From: Aotearoamyces nothofagi
Lineage: Eukaryota > Ascomycota > Leotiomycetes > Leotiales > Tympanidaceae
NCBI GenBank assembly: GCA_015345905.1
Contig: JADDTR010000008.1
Coordinates: 186,001 to 250,000 of the forward strand
DNA length: 64,000 nt
Direction: 5' to 3'
Part shown: piece after piece, positions 9,483 through 62,144 of the stretch
How the letters are laid out: every line of letters starts with the position of its first letter
Numbering within the stretch: position 1 is the stretch's first letter
The notes under the pieces: model-generated
The model's input: the letters and a program-made list of their open reading frames with translations, nothing else
The model's database searches: none
Told to the model about the DNA's origin: nothing
Position numbers and translations under genes: made by a program

Positions 9483-12300
9483 TTTGAGGGTTTATGGGTT
9501 GCTTTGGATGGTTTGAGAGGTGGCTGAAGGGATTGAGATGATTGAACTGAGAGCGGTGTAAATGGAAGACGGTGGATTGTCGCTGAACTTAAATGAGGTT
9601 CTTGTAGTGGGGTCCCCTGGAGACATGGCGACGCTAAGATAGATTATCGCTAATCCGATTATGCCTGGACTTTGGATTTGTCTGACAGATGACGGCCAGC
9701 TCGGTGGCCTGCGGATGTCGAACGAATAGGGCAAATTTCCGAGCCGCAAGCTCGAGGGCGAATCCATTATGTTCCGATATTGGGAATGCTGATCCGGTAT
9801 TATTTCACATAATTAGAGTGGATTTCCATCGAGTTTGTCAGAACGCAGGACCGTTATACGTCATATCTGTGCTTGCTGACGATATTCGCCAGTCTAGAAC
9901 AACGCCGATACCTGAAATTCGAGGCCGGAATTGAGTACTTGCCAGAAGAATCACGTGATATCCCCATATCACTCCGCACTTATACAAGTACACGGCGTTG
10001 GGAGGTGCACCCTGCGAGCATCCTGCCTGTCATATAAAGGCAAGAAGCCCTATGCTATAGACGTAGGTACCGGAGGCATGCTGCTGATTTGATAATTATC
10101 GACTCATTCATCTTTTTACGGCCTCATCATATCTTAATCTCGTGACTCATCGTCATAAATATCCTAGGTAGTCGAAGTTTTGATTTTAGAACTTCTACCT
10201 CTTTCGCTCTTGAGAGATCTGGACAGAACGAAGAGAGCAAGTAAGTAATATGCATCTAGAAAACGTCAAGAACCCTCACTCGGAGTAGCAGAGGGCGAGG
10301 GCAAGGGCTGTATCTGGGGTAACCGTGCCCACTTCTTCCATGATCCTGACGAGACGGTCAAATGCCCCAGCAAGAAATCGGCAAAAGAGAACGCATAATC
10401 CAAAAGAGCTGTTGGCATGCACTGGTGACAGGGTCTGTAGAATATAGCGCAGCTGGGGCCGTGCAGGAACTCGAAAAAGTTATGTTGATGATATACGTTA
10501 CATGTCGACTCATGGTACCGTAGTTCGATCCTGGTATAAGAAACGAATTTGTCCTGACGAAGCTTCTGCAACTTTAATTCTAATTGGCAAGTGACTCCGA
10601 GAAGAATATATGCTATCATATCCCCTCGAGTCCCGCCGACGAACAATGAACAATGGCTTTATATCATATCACATACGAAGAGACGCGCTGGAACTGCAGT
10701 CCAGACCAAGCCGAAACCATGAAATACGTGTAGTAAACTGCCAAGCCCGCCACGTAGTGCAAAAGCCAGTAGAACGGGGGTAACAATCATGAGACCCTGC
10801 AACAAAGCCGTTGAGGTGGTCGCTAACTGTAGAGCCGGCCGGGAGAGCGCAGACGGTTCACCGCAGCGGCTGTAACCTGCGTAGACCTACCTGTGCGTAC
10901 CAAGTCATGCCAGAACACGACGGAAAACCAAGATCAAATCAGTCATTTTCGATCGCTATTACGTACAGAGGGGGCGCGTTCTATTCAAGGGTCTGATTCC
11001 CTCTATCTCACATGGCGCCAAGTCCGGGTCCCTCCCTAGAACCAGAGAGAAGAAAAGGGATGCCCAGGCGCTCGGATATCTGATATCTGATACCAGCCGG
11101 TACACGCTTCGGATGCAGGTTGAAAGAACCCGGAAAATAGTCAAAGTCGAATGACAGGTCACATGAATAAAATATCTGGATGTGGCTGTGAACGCGGCTT
11201 CTTTGCTCCGTCGTGTGCACGAGTGAAAGACCAGTGGAACTCCAAGAGGAGTTGCTTTCTTGCGATACACGGCAAGTGTAAATGCTGAGTATGCTGAGGT
11301 TGCGAAACGAATCTGAGCAAACTTACCCCGGCGCCGAAGGTGGTTACATGGCGAAGATAGTTTGACTGAGAGCTGCACCTTCTGTTCAAGCTTTCTCATT
11401 GCTTAAATTTACCATGATTTTATTGTCCTCTCACTCTCTCTTAACCGTGCTCCGTAGGTGCGGAACAAGAGGCAAGACAAGGTGAAGCGAGGTGGTCAAG
11501 GCTCTCAAAGGACAAAGGCCAAACCAAGCATCTGTTGATAGAACATGGACAAAGTGAGAAGTGACCCGCGGAGCCAGCCATCTCACGTCTCTAGCTCATC
11601 AAGGACATGTGGTACACACAGGGATTCTTACAACTGCAACACGACACATCAGGGCTGCACGGAGAGTGGACGGGAGGGTAGTTCCGGCGGTATCGTCGAG
11701 CAACAAAGGGAACAAAGGGGACAGCGAGTCAGCGACAATGGATCTCTATGATAGTCGACTAGTTTACGATGGCCGCCCACATCAACATGAGTGGCCAGTA
11801 GAAGGTCGAATCAGATATCGCATACCCGCGCGGGTTATAGGGTACTGGGAACTGGGCCCCGGATGCTGGATTGGGGTATAAGAGTGATGCAGCGGCCAGA
11901 TGTAGAGAGCTGATGACGAGGGCTTCGGCCGCCCTAGCCCTTGCCGTGCCTCTACCGTAGCCTATCCTACGGCCCCTTGGGCATCTTGGTGTGTACCAGC
12001 ACCCCGAATGGCCTCGTAACCCATCCGGCCTGGACAAAGCACACGGGACACACGGGATGGAAGGGACAGAACGGACAGAACGGAGCGAAATGACAGAAGA
12101 GATGGGCATTTTTGATCAATCAGTTCGAGCACTGGCCGAGCCCTGGAAGCGTCGAAGCACACTCAATCGGCATGCTCGAGGGAAAGCTTTGGTTTGAAGG
12201 AGGCCGTGGAGCCTTCGACAGCTGTTGTCTACCCCAAGGCGTCTGAGGGTTCAGGGCCTATAGTACCTAAAGAACAGTACTAATATTGTGGGAAGAACAG
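9483..12300. other. Gene-free region, first part
   Basis: Promoter side of the peroxiredoxin gene and a long stretch where I recognise no gene. The ORFs at 10266-10646 and 10959-11399 (minus) have no family signature, no plausible partner exons, and overlap ORFs on the other strand. A non-coding transcript cannot be excluded. Confidence 0.5.
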
Positions 12301-12390
12301 CAAAGTACAGTATAGCAAAGTACAGTATAGCAAAGTACAGTATAGCAAAGTACAGTATAGCAAAGTACAGTATAGCAAAGTACAGTATAC
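12301..12390. repeat. 15-bp tandem repeat, six copies
   Basis: Unit CAAAGTACAGTATAG starts at 12301, 12316, 12331, 12346, 12361 and 12376. Five copies are identical and the last differs at its final base. Further on, at 12594-12619, a 13-bp unit (GGATAATATTACT) occurs twice. Confidence 0.97.
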
Positions 12391-20346: not shown

Positions 20347-21088
20347 TTATTCGACATCAACCTTCTCATCGAAAGTCTCACCTGCAACCAGATCTGGAAT
20401 ATCATCATCATCCTCATCCTTGGCGCCCTCACCCTCCTTCTTTTGCAACGACTGGTAGCTTTCGGCAAGTTTGCGGAGAGATGCAAGGGAGTCTGGGCCG
20501 AGTTGGTTGAGGATGCCTGGAACAAGCTCGGTGAGCTCTTTATCTTCACCGTTGCCGTAAATAGCAAAAGTGTTGGCTGGGACGGCGGCATGAACTAGAG
20601 CGAGAATACTGTTAGTTCTCTGTGGCTCTGCAATTCTCAAGGTCATGAACGCCGAAGAGGATTATTTACCTTTTGGTGCAGCAAAGTGGATGACGTTTCC
20701 GTCAGCCTTGAACATGTTGACCTCCTCGATGGCTTGGATAGGTTGTACGTTGAGCTTCTTGAGAGCAGTTTGAAGCTTCTTGTCATCGACACCAGAGTTC
20801 TTGTGCTGCTTCTTCACCTTCCGTCTTGGTGTTCCCTTTCCACTACAGAATGGCGATATGTTAGCAATCTTGATCCTCTGCTATAAATGTCTCTTGATCT
20901 GTCGCGAGTCGCTAGTTACTGCTGGTGTAAGAGCTGTACATACCCTGTTGAATTGTTCAGGTTAGCGGATTCGCTGCAAGAGCTTTTATGAGGATTTAAA
21001 GCTACCCAGAAAGCACACAAGGCATCTGAAAAGATTACTCACCAATTCGCACTGACTGTTGCATCTTCTTCAGCTTTTCTAAATCCAT
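20347..21088 (-). CDS. EGD1: Nascent polypeptide-associated complex subunit beta
   Basis: Minus-strand exons 21088-21043, 20944 (one base), 20842-20670 and 20594-20347 give 155 aa. The product reads [17 protein letters not shown], then [16 protein letters not shown], the NAC domain ([38 protein letters not shown]) and an acidic tail ([14 protein letters not shown]). NAC beta pairs with NAC alpha on ribosomes and screens nascent chains. Exon 1 ends ATTG and exon 3 begins TGGAAAGGG. Direct joining shifts the frame, while one extra G gives ATT GGT GGA AAG, the conserved IGGKGTPRR. That G lies alone between two complete introns. All lengths then sum to 468 nt. Confidence 0.93.
20843..21042 (-). 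other. EGD1: Intron - single-nucleotide exon - intron in EGD1
   Basis: On the minus strand, intron 21042-20945 (98 bp) starts GTGAGT, has a GCTAAC branch site and ends CAACAG. The single base G at 20944 follows, and the next donor GTATGT starts at 20943. The second intron (20943-20843, 101 bp) also has GCTAAC and ends CTGTAG. Keeping exactly one G restores the invariant IGGKGTPRR of NAC beta. It can equally be described as two introns nested at one site (a twin-intron arrangement); the mature mRNA would be the same. Confidence 0.85.
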
Positions 21089-37291: not shown

Positions 37292-40200
37292 ATGCCAAGT
37301 CTTCCTCCCATACTTCTCCGACGCGACGAGCATGAAATCGACTTCGAGTGAGTTGTGCATCCAAGAATTGTATCGCCTCCCTTATATACTAATAGCCTGG
37401 TATAGTGACCCTCGTACATATGCTTTAGAGAGATGGAAGGAGATGAACTCTACCTATGTCGAACTATTAACTCCCGCTGATCGCAAAACGGTCGAAGACC
37501 CAAAAGACTGGTCCGCAGTCACTCAAATCATTCAAGAAAAGGCCAGTGAACGAAATACTGACAATGCCTCACGGAGAGCTCTTAATCGAATCCAGCCCTT
37601 GCCTCGGACACTAGCAAACCTTACGGGAGACTTTGAACGGGCACTTTCCCCAGCTGTCTTAGAATTCAATATATTGTGGGGTCTCTTGCTGCTTAATATT
37701 ACAGTAAGTCGCTCTGAGAAGCATCATTGATGTTGGTATGGTCAAATATTAACCATGTCAAGCTCTCTATGGGCACGCTAGAGAGACTCACTCAAACAGT
37801 GTCTTGGCTTTATAAACTAAGACGGTTGATTGAGCGGTTCGTCCGGGTCTTCAACATGTGTCAAAAAGAACAAGAGCCAACATTAACAGCCATCGAATTC
37901 TTTGAGGGTATGCTTGGTATGATGTGCGAGTCTGCCCAATACCTCCGGTCGTTTTCATCCGCAGGTATGCACGAACCCCCTATCCTCAAGTACCACTAAC
38001 ATAATGAATCCAGTCGATAATGAGTCGGAGGCATGGTCTGAACTGCTGTCAAAGATTGAGAAGCACCAAGACGAGCTAGACAGCACCATAAAACACCTCA
38101 GCGAGATTGTCTCATATTCGGCAGCCAACCAGCAAACCCAAGCACACAACCTTGTAATCAGACACTCGTTAGACCCCGACTCGGGTGAGCGAGTACGATT
38201 TCCAGTCAAGATGCTTCCTTTCCAACAGAATACAAACTTTTATGGACGAAAAAGTGAGCTTGCGAAGATAGATACATACTTGAGATGGCAGAACAACCCG
38301 GCGCTACGAACTTATTCAATTTACGGACGTCGTGGAGTGGGAAAGACGCAAATTGCACTCGAATATGCCTTCACAAATCCTTCTCGATTTAATGCTGTAT
38401 TCTGGATTCGGTGCGAAACCTCACTATCCCTACGACAGAGCTTCACAGAAATGGCCATTAGTATTACAACACAAGTTATTATTTAACATATAATTCTTGC
38501 TAATATTTGTTACAGAACTGAACCTTCCCGGTGCTGACAAGAACGGTACCGCACAAAACTATCCTATCATTTTTATATACTGACAGTGCTTAGGACACCA
38601 CGAAGAAAACCTGATGATGGTACAGGCATGGTTGAAAAAGACAAGTGAGTGAATATCATCGAGATTGCAAGAGAGTCTCTGCTAACTGTACTGCTTATTC
38701 AAGATCAACGATGGTTAATGATCTTCGACAATGCTGGTAGATACTTAATTTTATTTTATCAACGATTCACCCCGAACTAGTTCCTAATCACAAGCTTATT
38801 TGTAACACAGATAGGGAGTCCGAGTCTATCCTTAAGGGATACTGGCCGATAAATGCCGAAGGTGCAATCTTAATCACGTCTCGCGATTACTACAATTTTA
38901 TCAAGGATATACAACGGAAAGGCGAGACCGTCTTGCCATTCAACGACGAAGAATCATGGAACCTCTTTACTAGGCTCATAGATTACAAGTGGTTGGATAT
39001 TCTCGATCAAAATGAGACAGAAGCAACTGCAGCAAGAGATTGGCTGAAAAAGCTCAGGGGATTACGTGAGTCTCAAGTATATGCATGAAATTGTTATAAA
39101 CAAAATCTTATTAACCTTTCCGTTTAGCACTTTCTATAAAGACCGCAGCTAGCTTGATAGTCAATCCAAAATCACATGGAGGCTCGTCGATTGCTGAGAA
39201 GTACGACACCTTTCTACGGCATGAGATAGACCTCCCGGAGCGGCACCGAGGCGAACGAAAAGACACAATTCGTGCTCTCGATTCTGTCTTTGATATGACA
39301 TTTACATCACTGAGTCGGCATGCTAGAGACGTTCTAGGCATATTAGCACTTCTATCACCAGGTAGGTTATCTTAGGTATTATGAAGAATAAATAATTCTA
39401 GCCCTCTTCACTAATTCATTCCTCAGATGAAATCCTTGTTGAGCTCTTCCTACCCCGCAAACAAGTAAGTTCAATAGCTCTCATGCTGCTTTATGCAATT
39501 TATTGATGACGTGTATAGTCAGCACTGGACGGGAAACTCGAATTCGCCAAGGTAGACATTCCTGGCAATGTGAACCAGACGGAAGCCGATCTTACAAGGC
39601 TCGTCAACTTGTCTCCTGCACTAAATAAAGCAATTGAAGAGCTAGCACTGGCTTCTCTCATCACTGTCGACAGTCGAAGACTATCGGTCCATAGAGAGAT
39701 CCAAGAAGCTATGAATTACCATTCTAAGCAAGACTTGCAAGATTCATTCGGTAGCTGCGTCAGTCTCGTGTATGAAGGTAATATGACAGTACCCCTTTTA
39801 CAAGCTCGACTAAAGCTGACTACTATATAGCTTTCCCGAAACAGGTCTATGGAAACACGCTGTACGACAGTTGGGGAGTTTGTACAAGTTATATTACCCA
39901 TGCCGTACATTTGAGTAACAAGCTCAAGAGATACGGGCCAAAGCTCCTCCAGCCATCATGGGAATTTGTCCAACTCTCCTCGAATGCTGCATGGTAAATC
40001 TACGGTATAAACACGTTATACAGTACACTGCTAATATTGTAGTATAGGTACATGTACGAAGTAGGCCTCTATGAGGATGGTGTTGCAATAATTGAGGTTG
40101 CAAAAAGCGTTTGCACCGACAGCGAGAGTTCTCAAATGGCTCATCTTTGCACAACGCAAGGAGCCAACTTCTATGAGCTTAACCAGATGTCAGAGTGTCG

Positions 40201-41109
40201 GGCAAACTGGGAGAAAGCATATTACATTCGGGAGAAGCTTCAGTGCGAAGAAGACAGAGGAGACATTGCCATCAGCCTTCATAACCTCGCAAATTTAGAA
40301 GCCGCCATGGGGAATCCAGAAAAGGCGCTGTCCTACTACGACGAAGTTGTAAAGATCCGTCTTGCTATTGGCAATCGAGCAGCTTTACATCTTGGTACTA
40401 CATACCTTGGAATTGGCCGCTGTTATGTTGACCAGAAAAGGTACCTGGATGCTCGGAAAATGTACGGCCAAGCAGAGCAACTCTTCGTCCGCACAGCAGG
40501 TGCAAATAAACATTTCATGGCCCAGTGAGTATTGTCAAGCTAATAATACCCGGTTAATGTTGACATATATCGCAGTTGCCACTATCAATACGGTAATGTT
40601 GATTTCGAGCAAGGACTTTACCATGAGGCAAGGCGAGCCTACGACAATTGCTTGAATATTGCTTCAGTCGAGATTCCTATGCATCCTCTGACATGTGCTG
40701 CCTATTACAGCATCGGCTGTACAGAATTCGCTCTTGGTAATGATGAGCCCGCAAAGTACGTGCCTCCAAGATTCCACTAAACACATAATCATCATTAACA
40801 ATAATCATCATTAGGATGTGGCTAGGGAAGGCAAAAAGCATAGCTGAGTTGCGGAGCCCAGCTAGAGTCGACGGCACCACAGCTCGGATCTTGTGGAAGA
40901 TGGCTCAGGTGATGAAAAATGACATCACGGGAGCAGGAACGATCGAAGCTAATTCGCTGTTGAATCGAGCGGAGGCTGCGAGAGCGGAGTTGACTACGAA
41001 AGGCGAGTCTGCAGAGGTTGATAACTTGGACGAGGACAGAGATGGCAAGACCCAACAACAGATAGAGGAAGAGGAGTACGACTTGCTGGTTCCTGGGTAC
41101 TTTAGGTGA
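37292..41109 (+). CDS. STAND/NLR protein: N-terminal helical domain, NB-ARC-like NTPase, TPR repeats
   Basis: Fifteen exons: 37292-37347, 37406-37703, 37763-37964, 38014-38460, 38516-38545, 38594-38644, 38704-38736, 38811-39065, 39128-39361, 39427-39464, 39519-39777, 39831-39993, 40048-40524, 40576-40755 and 40815-41109. Together they give 1005 aa with every junction in frame. Residues 1-215 form a helical N-terminal domain with some likeness to the Goodbye/DUF7708-type domains of fungal NLRs. The P-loop is GRRGVGKTQ (about residue 290), Walker B WLMIFDNAD (about 365-373), and ILITSRDYYN a sensor-1-like motif. Residues about 690-850 hold TPRs (ISLHNLANLEAAMGNPEKAL and similar). Fungal STANDs are thought to act in self/non-self recognition and immunity. 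The donor at 38461 (GTATTA) was chosen because the alternative gives a stop. Confidence 0.85.
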
Positions 41110-47595: not shown

Positions 47596-49401
47596 ATGAT
47601 ACCAAACGCCATTGAGAACGCGCAGAAAGGCAATGATTCTTTGTTCTTTCCGGATACCCCCATTCAAGATACGGTACCACTGGAGGTCCTTAATCACGAT
47701 GTCGAAAAGATGTTTGTTCGCAAGCTTGACTTGATCATTATGCCACTCATTTCCATCATTTACTTCACACATAGTTTGGATAGAGCAAACCTAGGGAATG
47801 CGAAAACTGACGGATTTGAAGAAGATATTGGCTTGGGCAGTATGGCTCTCCAATAGCACATCTTATAAGTATATCGGAAAGTTAACGAAAGTAGGTAATC
47901 AGTACTCGCTAATATTGGTGCTCTTCTACGTCCCTTATGGAACACTCAATATTCCAGCAACTGTCATGGCCAAGCGATTCAGCCCTGCAGTTGTAATTCC
48001 GCTTCTTATGTTTTCGTGGGGAGCTATTTCTCTGGGCACCTCTGGAGTCACAAACTTTGGTGGAATTCTCACTAGTCGTATCCTTCTAGGAATTGTTGAA
48101 GCTGGCTTTGTGAGTGATAATTTGATCCAGGTCTATCTAGTAAACTGACAACTAAAAGTTTCCCTCCGCCATTTTCTATCTCACCATTTTCTACACAAGA
48201 CATGAAATTGCAAAACGTGTGAGCTACTTTTACTGCATGGGATTTGTTGCAAATGCCTTTTCAGGCCTGATCGCCTATAGGTATGTTACCATGGACATCT
48301 TGCAAGATGGACAATACTTATTTTTGATGCATCAGTGTTTTTCAGTGGAAGTCAAAGCTCTATGTATGACCTCGCTATTGCTTTCTTAATCGCTACTGAT
48401 AGATGAAATAGGATTGGCGATACCTCTTTATCATTGAGGGATCATTGACAATGGCCTTGTCTATAATAGCATTTGTCTTACTTCCAAGAAGTGTCGCTGC
48501 TTCCAAATATTTCACCGATGACGAGAAGACTTGCTCTTTCGTACGTTTGCGAATGGAGTCGGAGATTGAAACAGTGAAATTCTCTTGGGATGCTACGTTA
48601 AAACCTCTCTGGGACTGGCGTACGTGGATGTATGGCTTCATGGCATTGTGCTATGGTGTGGCCGCGGCTTCAATATCTAACTTCCTTCCAGTGAGTAACT
48701 TTTGTTTTTTTTTTTAGTTAAGTATATATGCTGATATTTCCACCAGACAATTATCAAACGCCTGACTGTCGAAACGATCAAGGCCAATTTGTATACAATA
48801 GCGCCGAATCTTAGCGGAGCACTATTCATTGTCCTTGTTTGCTTCATTAGTGATAGATTTCAGCAGAGAGCAATTTGTGCTGCCGTATCTGTTGTGATAT
48901 CTATGATTGGCTTTATATGCCTTGGTACAGTTGATCTAGTGCATCACACCGGTCTAGGATACTTTTTGTAAGTACCCATATATCATTCTCGATTAGCATT
49001 CATTGACTCTATAGCACTTTCCTCCTAACCTTTGGAGCTTTCACACCAGCAGTCATTGTTCCGGCGTGGCTATCTAGTAATACTGTGTCATCGTCTGGAC
49101 GTGCCACAACACTAGGTTTAATCGCGGGTCTGCAAAACATTGCAGGTATCATTTCTTCTGAGGCTTTTAGGACCGAGGATGCTCCAGTAAGTTGGGTTAG
49201 TGAGAGTGGTAACTTGAAGCTAACCAAATTCAGGTTTATGCCCCAGCATTGATTGTCTCTGGCTGTTTTCAAGGTGTGATGGTCATCATTGTAGGAGCTG
49301 CGTACTTTTATTATAGGCGTGTTAATCAGCAACTAGATAGTGGGAAGCTTAAGTGTGTGAAGGGTATGGAGCAAAATCCCTTATTTAGATATGTTCTATA
49401 G
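47596..49401 (+). CDS. MFS permease of the allantoate/nicotinate (Dal5/Tna1, ACS) family
   Basis: Exons 47596-47839, 47895-48109, 48159-48280, 48336-48363, 48412-48690, 48747-48967, 49015-49186 and 49234-49401 give 482 aa. The N-terminal LDLIIMPLISIIYFTHSLDR followed by ANLGNAK is the classic family start. Others are LFYVPYGTLNIPATVMAKRF, SRILLGIVEAGFFPSAIFYL and WRYLFIIEGSLTMA. About twelve membrane segments are visible. The family imports anionic small molecules such as allantoate, nicotinate, pantothenate or biotin precursors. Exon 4 is only 28 nt. The first acceptor could be 47894 (TAG) or 47890 (AAG); both hold the frame depending on phase, so residue 82 is uncertain. It lies head-to-head with LOG and just upstream of QPRT. 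Confidence 0.84.
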
Positions 49402-58357: not shown

Positions 58358-60226
58358 ATGGCTCTATCTCCTATGTCTGGCGATGACAAGCAAGGCTATC
58401 CCCTTGAGGATCCCCTTGAGGGTAGACCAACAGGCTCTTTGGAGCTTTCCTGGCGTTTTTATGCAGCCTTTGGTTGCATTTGCCTCGTCAATCTCGTTTG
58501 TGCCTTAGATGCAACGATTCTTTCCGTGGCACTGCCGGTATGAGCGACTTCATAGTACCAAGTTCCAGTGTCTAATAACATGAGTCCTCTAGATTGTTGC
58601 CTTCAAGCTAAATGGAACGGCAATGGAGGCTTTCTGGGCCGGCACATCATACCTTCTCACATCCACTGTCTTTCAACCAACATGGGCTTCCTTCTCGCAT
58701 ATCATGGGCCGAAAGGACGTGCTTCTTGTAGCCTTAGTTCTGTTTTGTGTCGGTTCGATAGTCGCAGCGATTGCTAAGAACTTTACTATATTGCTCCTCG
58801 GTCGAAGTATCCAAGGTGTTGGTGGCGGCGGGCTATCGGCTCTCACGTATGTTATTATAACAGATCTTGTCACATTAAGGGAACGTGGCAAGTGGTTTAG
58901 TATGATCAGTTTGATGTGGGCTATAGGTATGCCGTATTCCATCTCTTTCGGTGAATCTCTAACAAGAATTCAGGTAGTGTTACAGGTCCTGTTATTGGAG
59001 GAGCTATCGCCGAAGATTCGACTTGGCCATTCATATTTTGGCTGAATCTCCCGTTCTGTGCCCTTGCCTTTGTTGGTATTCCAATATGCCTGAGACTGAG
59101 CCCAATCGCTGGATCCGTTGGCGAGAAGCTCAAGACTTTCGATTGGATTGGGTCGTTCCTTTTCACCGCCTCCATAACAAGTTTTCTCATTCCTTTGACT
59201 TGGGGTAAGTTTTCTAAGACACCATTATATCCCATTCCTGACCAGAGCTATAGGAGGCATCATGTACGACTGGGATAGCCTGCGAACCCTCTCACCTCTC
59301 CTCATTGGTTTTGCCGGGTTAGTCGCCTTCGTAGCTTACTCTTTATACGGCGCAGCGTCACCTGTCATCCGCGCGAGTGTCTTTTCTACATCCACAGCCA
59401 AAGTGGCATATTTGGGTACAGTAATTCATGGCATTATTTTGTGGTCGTTGCTCTACTATATGCCGTTGTATTTTGAAGTTGCTAAAGACTTCGGTGCCAT
59501 TACGACAGGAATTTCTCTGTTCCCATTTACCTTCACCACGGCTCCAGCTAGTCTCATCACCGGTCTTGTAATCACAAAGACTGGCAAATACCGACGATCA
59601 GTTGTAAGATTCCTCGTCAACTTCAATTATTCATGGACAATCACAGGACTAACCTATCATAGCATATCGGTTGGCTTCTTACCACCCTCGGTACAGGTGT
59701 CCTCACTATCCTAAAACAACAAACAACTACCGTCCAATGGATATTCGTCTCTCTCGTCCCCGGCATCGGTTGTGGCATCCTTTACTCCGCACAATCTATT
59801 GCTGTCCAATCCAGCGCCTCCAATGATGATCTACCCTTTGCCGCAGCAATGTACTCCTTCTTTCGCTCCCTCGGACAAACATTCGGCGTTGCGATTGGCG
59901 GAGTGGTGTTCCAAAATCTGCTCAAGAAGAAACTTGCTGCCAATCCGCTCCTTGCCACGAATGCGGACAGGTGGGCCAAAGATGCAAGTGCTTTGGTCCA
60001 AACAATCAAGGCGATGGATAATGGGCAGATCAAGAGTGATACCATTACTGCCTACGTCGAATCTTTGCAAGCCGTGTGGATTGTCATGTGTGCGTTGGCT
60101 GCGATGGTGTTTGTGTTGAGTTTGTTCTTCACGAAAGAAGTCTCGCTGGATCGCGAACATGAGACCCTGCAAGGGTTTAGACATGATATCAAATACCCTA
60201 GTGTTAAAGAAAAGGAAATACCATGA
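58358..60226 (+). CDS. DHA2-type (14-TM) MFS drug transporter
   Basis: Exons 58358-58537, 58593-58926, 58974-59204, 59254-59603 and 59663-60226 give 552 aa. Motifs: LDATILSVALPIVAFKLNGT after the first membrane segment, GRKDVLLVALVLFCVGSIVA (motif A region), LLLGRSIQGVGGGGLSALTY (motif B) and SVTGPVIGGAIAEDSTWPFI (motif C, the antiporter motif). About 14 membrane segments follow. The donor at 59604 (GTAAGA) was chosen because it keeps five residues between YR and GW as in relatives. Proton-driven export of drugs or metabolites at the plasma membrane is likely; the substrate is unknown. No biosynthetic partner gene is beside it. Confidence 0.9.
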
Positions 60227-62090: not shown

Positions 62091-62144
62091 CCACTCCTTG
62101 GGTATATAAGGTACAGTCCACTCCTTGGGTATATAAGGTACAGT
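62091..62144. repeat. 27-bp tandem duplication containing a TATA box
   Basis: Two perfect adjacent copies, 62091-62117 and 62118-62144, each containing GGGTATATAAGGTACAGT. They lie about 690-740 bp upstream of the 2EXR start and about 350 bp upstream of the dehydrogenase start. Confidence 0.95.

Follow-up and report, generated by a model that had tools for sequence, protein, structure and literature searches.

A candidate single-nucleotide exon between two short introns in the NAC-beta gene of Aotearoamyces nothofagi

One-base exons have been reported in the plant genes APC11 (PMC4674806) and VPS55 (PMC8831610); the available text of both papers describes them as conserved across diverse land plants. 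For Arabidopsis APC11, Guo and Liu favour intron definition and the removal of the introns one after the other (PMC4674806). A one-base exon was described in the CYP621A gene of Fusarium, for which the available part of the paper gives 18 SRA reads and 20 orthologues (24 genes elsewhere in the same text) (PMC12940212). A one-base exon flanked by group II introns has also been described for fungal mitochondria (PMC12308204, available text). An earlier note on the present DNA mentions one such exon, from Arabidopsis; this is no longer current, since VPS55 and Fusarium CYP621A also belong here (PMC8831610, PMC12940212). Nothing on one-base exons was found in the available portions of PMC5639578 and PMC9024468, and no earlier report of a one-base exon in NAC-beta was found among the open-licence papers listed.

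The window, which is the whole stretch of DNA that was analysed, is 64,000 nt long and carries a NAC-beta gene on its minus strand. We take EGD1 to be the name of this gene. The features of the locus are as follows:
21088-20347, minus strand: NAC-beta (EGD1/BTF3) gene, assigned from the sequence, the BTF3 match and the Pfam NAC domain; its stop codon ends at 20347
21043-21088, minus strand: exon 1, 46 nt, from ATG to ATTG (sequence; BTF3 match from residue 1)
21033-21038, minus strand: competing donor GTAATC, lying 4 nt downstream of GTGAGT, the main donor (21042)
20945-21042, minus strand: intron 1, 98 nt, GTGAGT...CAACAG, with a likely branch A at 20962 in CGCTAAC
20944, minus strand: predicted single-nucleotide exon, G (reading frame, gene finder, chance tests and pair enumeration)
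20843-20943, minus strand: intron 2, 101 nt, GTATGT...CTGTAG, with a likely branch A at 20861 in TGCTAAC
20670-20842, minus strand: exon 3, 173 nt, beginning with TGGAAAGG at 20842
20595-20669, minus strand: intron 3, 75 nt, ordinary
20347-20594, minus strand: exon 4, 248 nt including the stop codon

The direct joining of exon 1 to exon 3 was one base short of the frame and gave 24 codons and then a stop. When the single G was kept in the mRNA, the product had 155 aa. Halfway along the 200-nt intervening stretch, the G at 20944 is flanked by AG and GT, and it forms the second position of the first Gly codon in IGG (ATT G-G-T GGA). The one-base-exon structure predicts the spliced junction ATTGGTGGAAAG, and the junctions ATTGGTGATGGA and ATTGTGGAAAG would be incompatible with it. 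Several sequence marks of a single-nucleotide exon were found together at this locus: the frame is broken by one base, AG and GT are separated by one base, the introns on either side are complete and have branch sites, and no other canonical splicing gives the expected protein. The coordinates and sequence of the exons, introns and single G agreed with the earlier note, which had also rightly described the broken frame of the direct joining and its repair by one G between two complete introns.

Compared with the described systems, the NAC-beta exon is closest to that of Fusarium CYP621A (PMC12940212). As far as the available text describes CYP621A, in both genes a single G in AGGGT is essential for the frame and forms the second position of a Gly codon within a conserved motif; the intervening stretch is short in both, and both genes are fungal and nuclear. 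The stretch is 139 nt in F. graminearum CYP621A and 200 nt in NAC-beta. CYP621A is described as rarely expressed and its exon is backed by reads and orthologues, whereas the NAC-beta exon is predicted here from genomic sequence. The likeness to plant APC11 and VPS55 is that a one-base exon is flanked by two complete introns. In the text available for Arabidopsis APC11, the base is A, proven by substitution, in a 422-nt stretch; in NAC-beta, it is G in a 200-nt stretch.

The locus also resembles the stwintrons of Pezizomycotina (PMC6616335) and the "stwintrons sensu lato" of Lipomyces (PMC7138796), which in the available text have two U2 introns at a single site that are removed consecutively under intron definition. 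In a strict stwintron, one intron lies within a splicing element (donor, branch or acceptor) of its partner, whereas the NAC-beta introns are complete and lie side by side. A strict stwintron was rejected here because neither intron interrupts the elements of the other, and the 98-nt and 101-nt introns are separated by the G at 20944. The Lipomyces forms have one intron nested in the other, whereas the NAC-beta introns are one exonic base apart (PMC7138796). At recursive splice sites or zero-length exons (PMC5126111, available text), an acceptor likewise meets a donor, and stepwise splicing is possible. Such a site is YAG/GT with no exonic base, whereas NAC-beta keeps one base that sets the frame. 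A zero-length recursive site was rejected, as the sequence is AG-G-GT and not AG followed directly by GT. Abutting introns (AG-GT) and AG-G-GT may be neighbouring steps of one series.

The identification of the gene as NAC beta, already proposed from the sequence, was confirmed. BTF3 chains in the PDB matched residues 1–150 of the product (158.9 bits, best E 9e-46), with the motif ungapped. Seven distinct chain sequences matched, and four of the five alignments displayed span the N-terminal motif. All four were ungapped at the motif, and they apparently represent one identical sequence and thus one independent comparison. The motif IGGKGTPRR had been called invariant; it did align without gaps to the BTF3 chains, and the comparison set consisted of PDB BTF3 chains only. 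The product has a Pfam NAC domain (E 2.3e-23) and contains RRKVKK, which corresponds to RRK(X)nKK, described as the N-terminal ribosome-binding motif of NAC-beta (PMC5986199, available text). The NAC domain and the RRK(X)nKK motif together place the product in the NAC-beta/BTF3 family. Relatives of NAC-beta were looked for in four scans of viral and bacterial/archaeal contigs, collections not meant for fungi, and none was confirmed among 14 and 79 pattern matches of the whole protein and 156 and 21 of its long pieces.

A gene finder was built for the window with codon usage, donor, branch, acceptor and length terms, no lower exon limit and no homology. It was trained on the window (23 genes and 60 introns, the NAC-beta gene included), starting from splice-site tables of fungal consensus that were re-estimated from the finder's own predictions. 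The finder chose exons of 46/1/173/248 nt for NAC-beta without homology, with NAC-beta in the training set. Among the 23 intact genes, NAC-beta alone was assigned an internal exon of 1–2 nt. The introns and codons of NAC-beta were then dropped from training, leaving 22 genes and 57 introns, with gene models taken from the run that included NAC-beta. The 46/1/173/248 structure again came out as the best path with all three length models, whether or not GC donors were allowed. Its weight among the top 400 paths was 0.81 (lognormal), 0.88 (mixture) and 0.78 (flat), and other paths had 0.12–0.22; homology, which would raise these weights, is not part of them, and nor is any prior for how rare one-base exons are, which would lower them. 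Pfam supported 6/6 of the other predicted proteins that were scanned (of 22).

No tRNA genes and no Rfam families were found in the window. A predicted gene at 37292-41109 contains 14 short introns, and its product of 1,005 aa by eye resembles a fungal NLR-like NTPase with repeats. A predicted MFS transporter lies at 58358-60226; its Pfam match to the TRI12 efflux pump family was weaker. At 12299-12389, a 15-base unit is repeated perfectly in tandem (6.1 copies), and two perfect copies of a 27-base unit were observed at 62091-62144.

The splice signals of both introns were within the ordinary range of the window. Compared with the 57 introns of leave-out training, the donor, branch and acceptor ranked 27, 29 and 30 in intron 1 and 41, 55 and 27 in intron 2. 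This range of ranks (27–55 of 57) bears out the earlier description of two complete introns with good donors, branch sites and acceptors. The YTRAY branch pattern has one match in each of the two introns, the acceptor is the first AG downstream of it, and 17 and 18 bases lie between the branch A and the exon in introns 1 and 2, respectively. The length of introns 1 and 2, which is long for the window, counts against the one-base-exon reading. The training introns, which are the finder's own predictions under a length term that favours short introns, measured 43–137 nt with a median of 55 nt, and 1/57 was longer than 98–101 nt.

The chance of such an arrangement was estimated from 20,000 dinucleotide shuffles of the interior of the stretch, with the first 6 and last 28 nt kept. 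AG-G-GT appeared in 896/20,000 shuffles, and the real score was reached in 0/20,000. With any base allowed in the middle (AG-N-GT), the arrangement appeared in 6,390/20,000 shuffles and the real score was reached in 1/20,000. When all 382 AG-N-GT sites on both strands of the window were scored, the real score was reached by the real site alone (0/381 others).

The enumeration of alternative splicing showed that the expected protein came from 1/3,946 GT-AG intron pairs, namely the reported pair, and from 0 single introns. Introns of at least 30 nt were considered, and the target was the protein of the reported pair, so the test shows uniqueness. With GC-AG and AT-AC introns allowed, the reported pair was still the sole solution (1/58,795). 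Fifteen single introns with GT-AG, GC-AG or AT-AC ends kept the frame, and 0/15 gave IGGKGTPRR. The claim that no alternative GT-AG pair restores the protein thus stands for the exact motif (0 single introns, 1/3,946 pairs) and fails for the frame alone, which 15 single introns preserve.

The mildest of these single introns runs from 21038 to 20843 (196 nt, donor GTAATC) and gives IGDGKGTPRR, with one extra Asp; it is absent from the earlier note. The target protein is judged to be the right one because of the BTF3 alignment, in which the added Asp costs 6 bits (152.9 bits, against 158.9 without the insertion). A single GT-AG intron with an altered motif, either 21038-20843 or 21056-20843 (214 nt, donor GTCAGT, product without RIG), is an improbable explanation of the locus. 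Both introns have canonical ends and keep the frame, and the Asp insertion loses merely those 6 bits against BTF3. Under the flat length model they scored 32.95 and 34.12, respectively, the latter being the nearest competitor, against 35.85 for the reported structure. However, just 4/57 training donors score as low as GTAATC, and both lengths exceed those of all 57 training introns (43–137 nt), although the finder itself favours short introns. With a single GT-AG intron, the branch site, acceptor and donor inside it would also have to be chance occurrences (0/20,000 shuffles). Both single introns change a motif that aligns ungapped to BTF3, and their junctions differ from ATTGGTGGA.

A sequence or assembly error, in which a G is missing at the flank of what is really one ordinary intron of about 199 nt, seems less probable still. 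The loss of a base from a short G run would produce exactly such a frame problem. Against this, an intron of about 199 nt would be longer than all 57 training introns, and the presence of AG-G-GT together with a branch site of its own would have to be coincidental. A frame-break control was performed by removing or doubling one base at each of the 57 other introns (114 trials). The best path contained a 1-nt exon in 0/114 trials and a zero-length exon in 1/114. The zero-length exon arose from a simulated deletion in a predicted MFS gene at 47596-49401.

With a single 199-nt gap allowed, exactly four alignments of the mature mRNA to the genome are possible; the ends of the gap are then GT-TA, TG-AG, GA-GT or AG-TG, none of which is canonical. 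One non-canonical 199-nt intron with one of these ends would give the identical mRNA in one step, and a free read mapper would probably report it. Because of these four alignments, a cDNA would prove the junction but could not distinguish between a one-base exon and a single non-canonical intron of 199 nt. Canonical ends occur in 0/4 placements, and the complete internal signals would be accidental, so that we regard this explanation as very improbable. Two introns with a larger small exon, such as one of 25 nt (20944-20920) that adds eight residues within the motif, are hardly credible: this path was second-best under the lognormal length model (32.48 vs 35.00), but it breaks the motif, its product junction differs from ATTGGTGGA, the G found at position 5 in about 0.80 of training donors is absent from its donor GTAACT, and an insertion of this kind occurs in 0/4 motif-spanning BTF3 alignments.

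We conclude, with a probability of roughly 0.9, that the NAC-beta gene carries a constitutive one-base exon, and that the two short, complete U2-type introns beside it would be removed consecutively via intron definition. From the sequence, an extra base is needed, there is a single canonical solution, and the signals are better than chance. Ascomycete introns are almost all small, which implies the pairing of splice sites across the intron (PMC6616335, available text). Introns 1 and 2 would each be recognised in this way, and both would be spliced in the cell. In AG-G-GTATGT, the intron 1 acceptor probably lies too near the intron 2 donor for both to be occupied simultaneously. Since one short junction is common to this acceptor and donor, we infer consecutive removal.

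Removal of intron 1 first would leave ATTGG/GTATGT, and removal of intron 2 first would leave CAACAG/GTGGAAA; either order would give the same mRNA. The intermediates with only one intron removed would read ATTGGGTATGT or CAACAGGTGGAAA. Premature ends were found after 24 codons when the G was skipped, 24 when intron 2 was retained and 17 when intron 1 was retained. Transcripts that skip the G or retain an intron may be open to nonsense-mediated decay. The splicing order and any regulatory use are likewise what we infer.

The 231-nt stretch showed no unusual RNA fold (z 0.23; 112/200 shuffles fold equally well). No likeness between introns 1 and 2 was detected, the local score being reached by 1,269/2,000 mononucleotide shuffles, and the inverted comparison was weak (84/2,000 shuffles reach the score). 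An origin by intron duplication found no clear support in either the direct or the inverted comparison. With no unusual fold and no clear intron likeness, nothing points to a special device or to duplication.

The NAC-beta exon looks like an addition to a known and very small kind, the one-base exons of plant and Fusarium genes. We speculate, with considerable doubt, that AG-G-GT one-base exons could be a recurrent and overlooked architecture in intron-defining fungi, obligatory here for a core subunit of a ribosome-associated chaperone, whose correct mRNA would depend on two successive splicing events at a common five-base junction, and that the 24-codon product of skipping could tune NAC levels. 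The locus also illustrates a pitfall for annotation, where a free mapper would be left with one non-canonical 199-nt intron. NAC-beta is a translation-linked gene and is expected to be well expressed. If confirmed, this would be the second fungal nuclear one-base exon found among open-licence papers, in a gene expected to be well expressed, unlike CYP621A. The order of splicing and the minimum exon size would then be easy to study in fungi.
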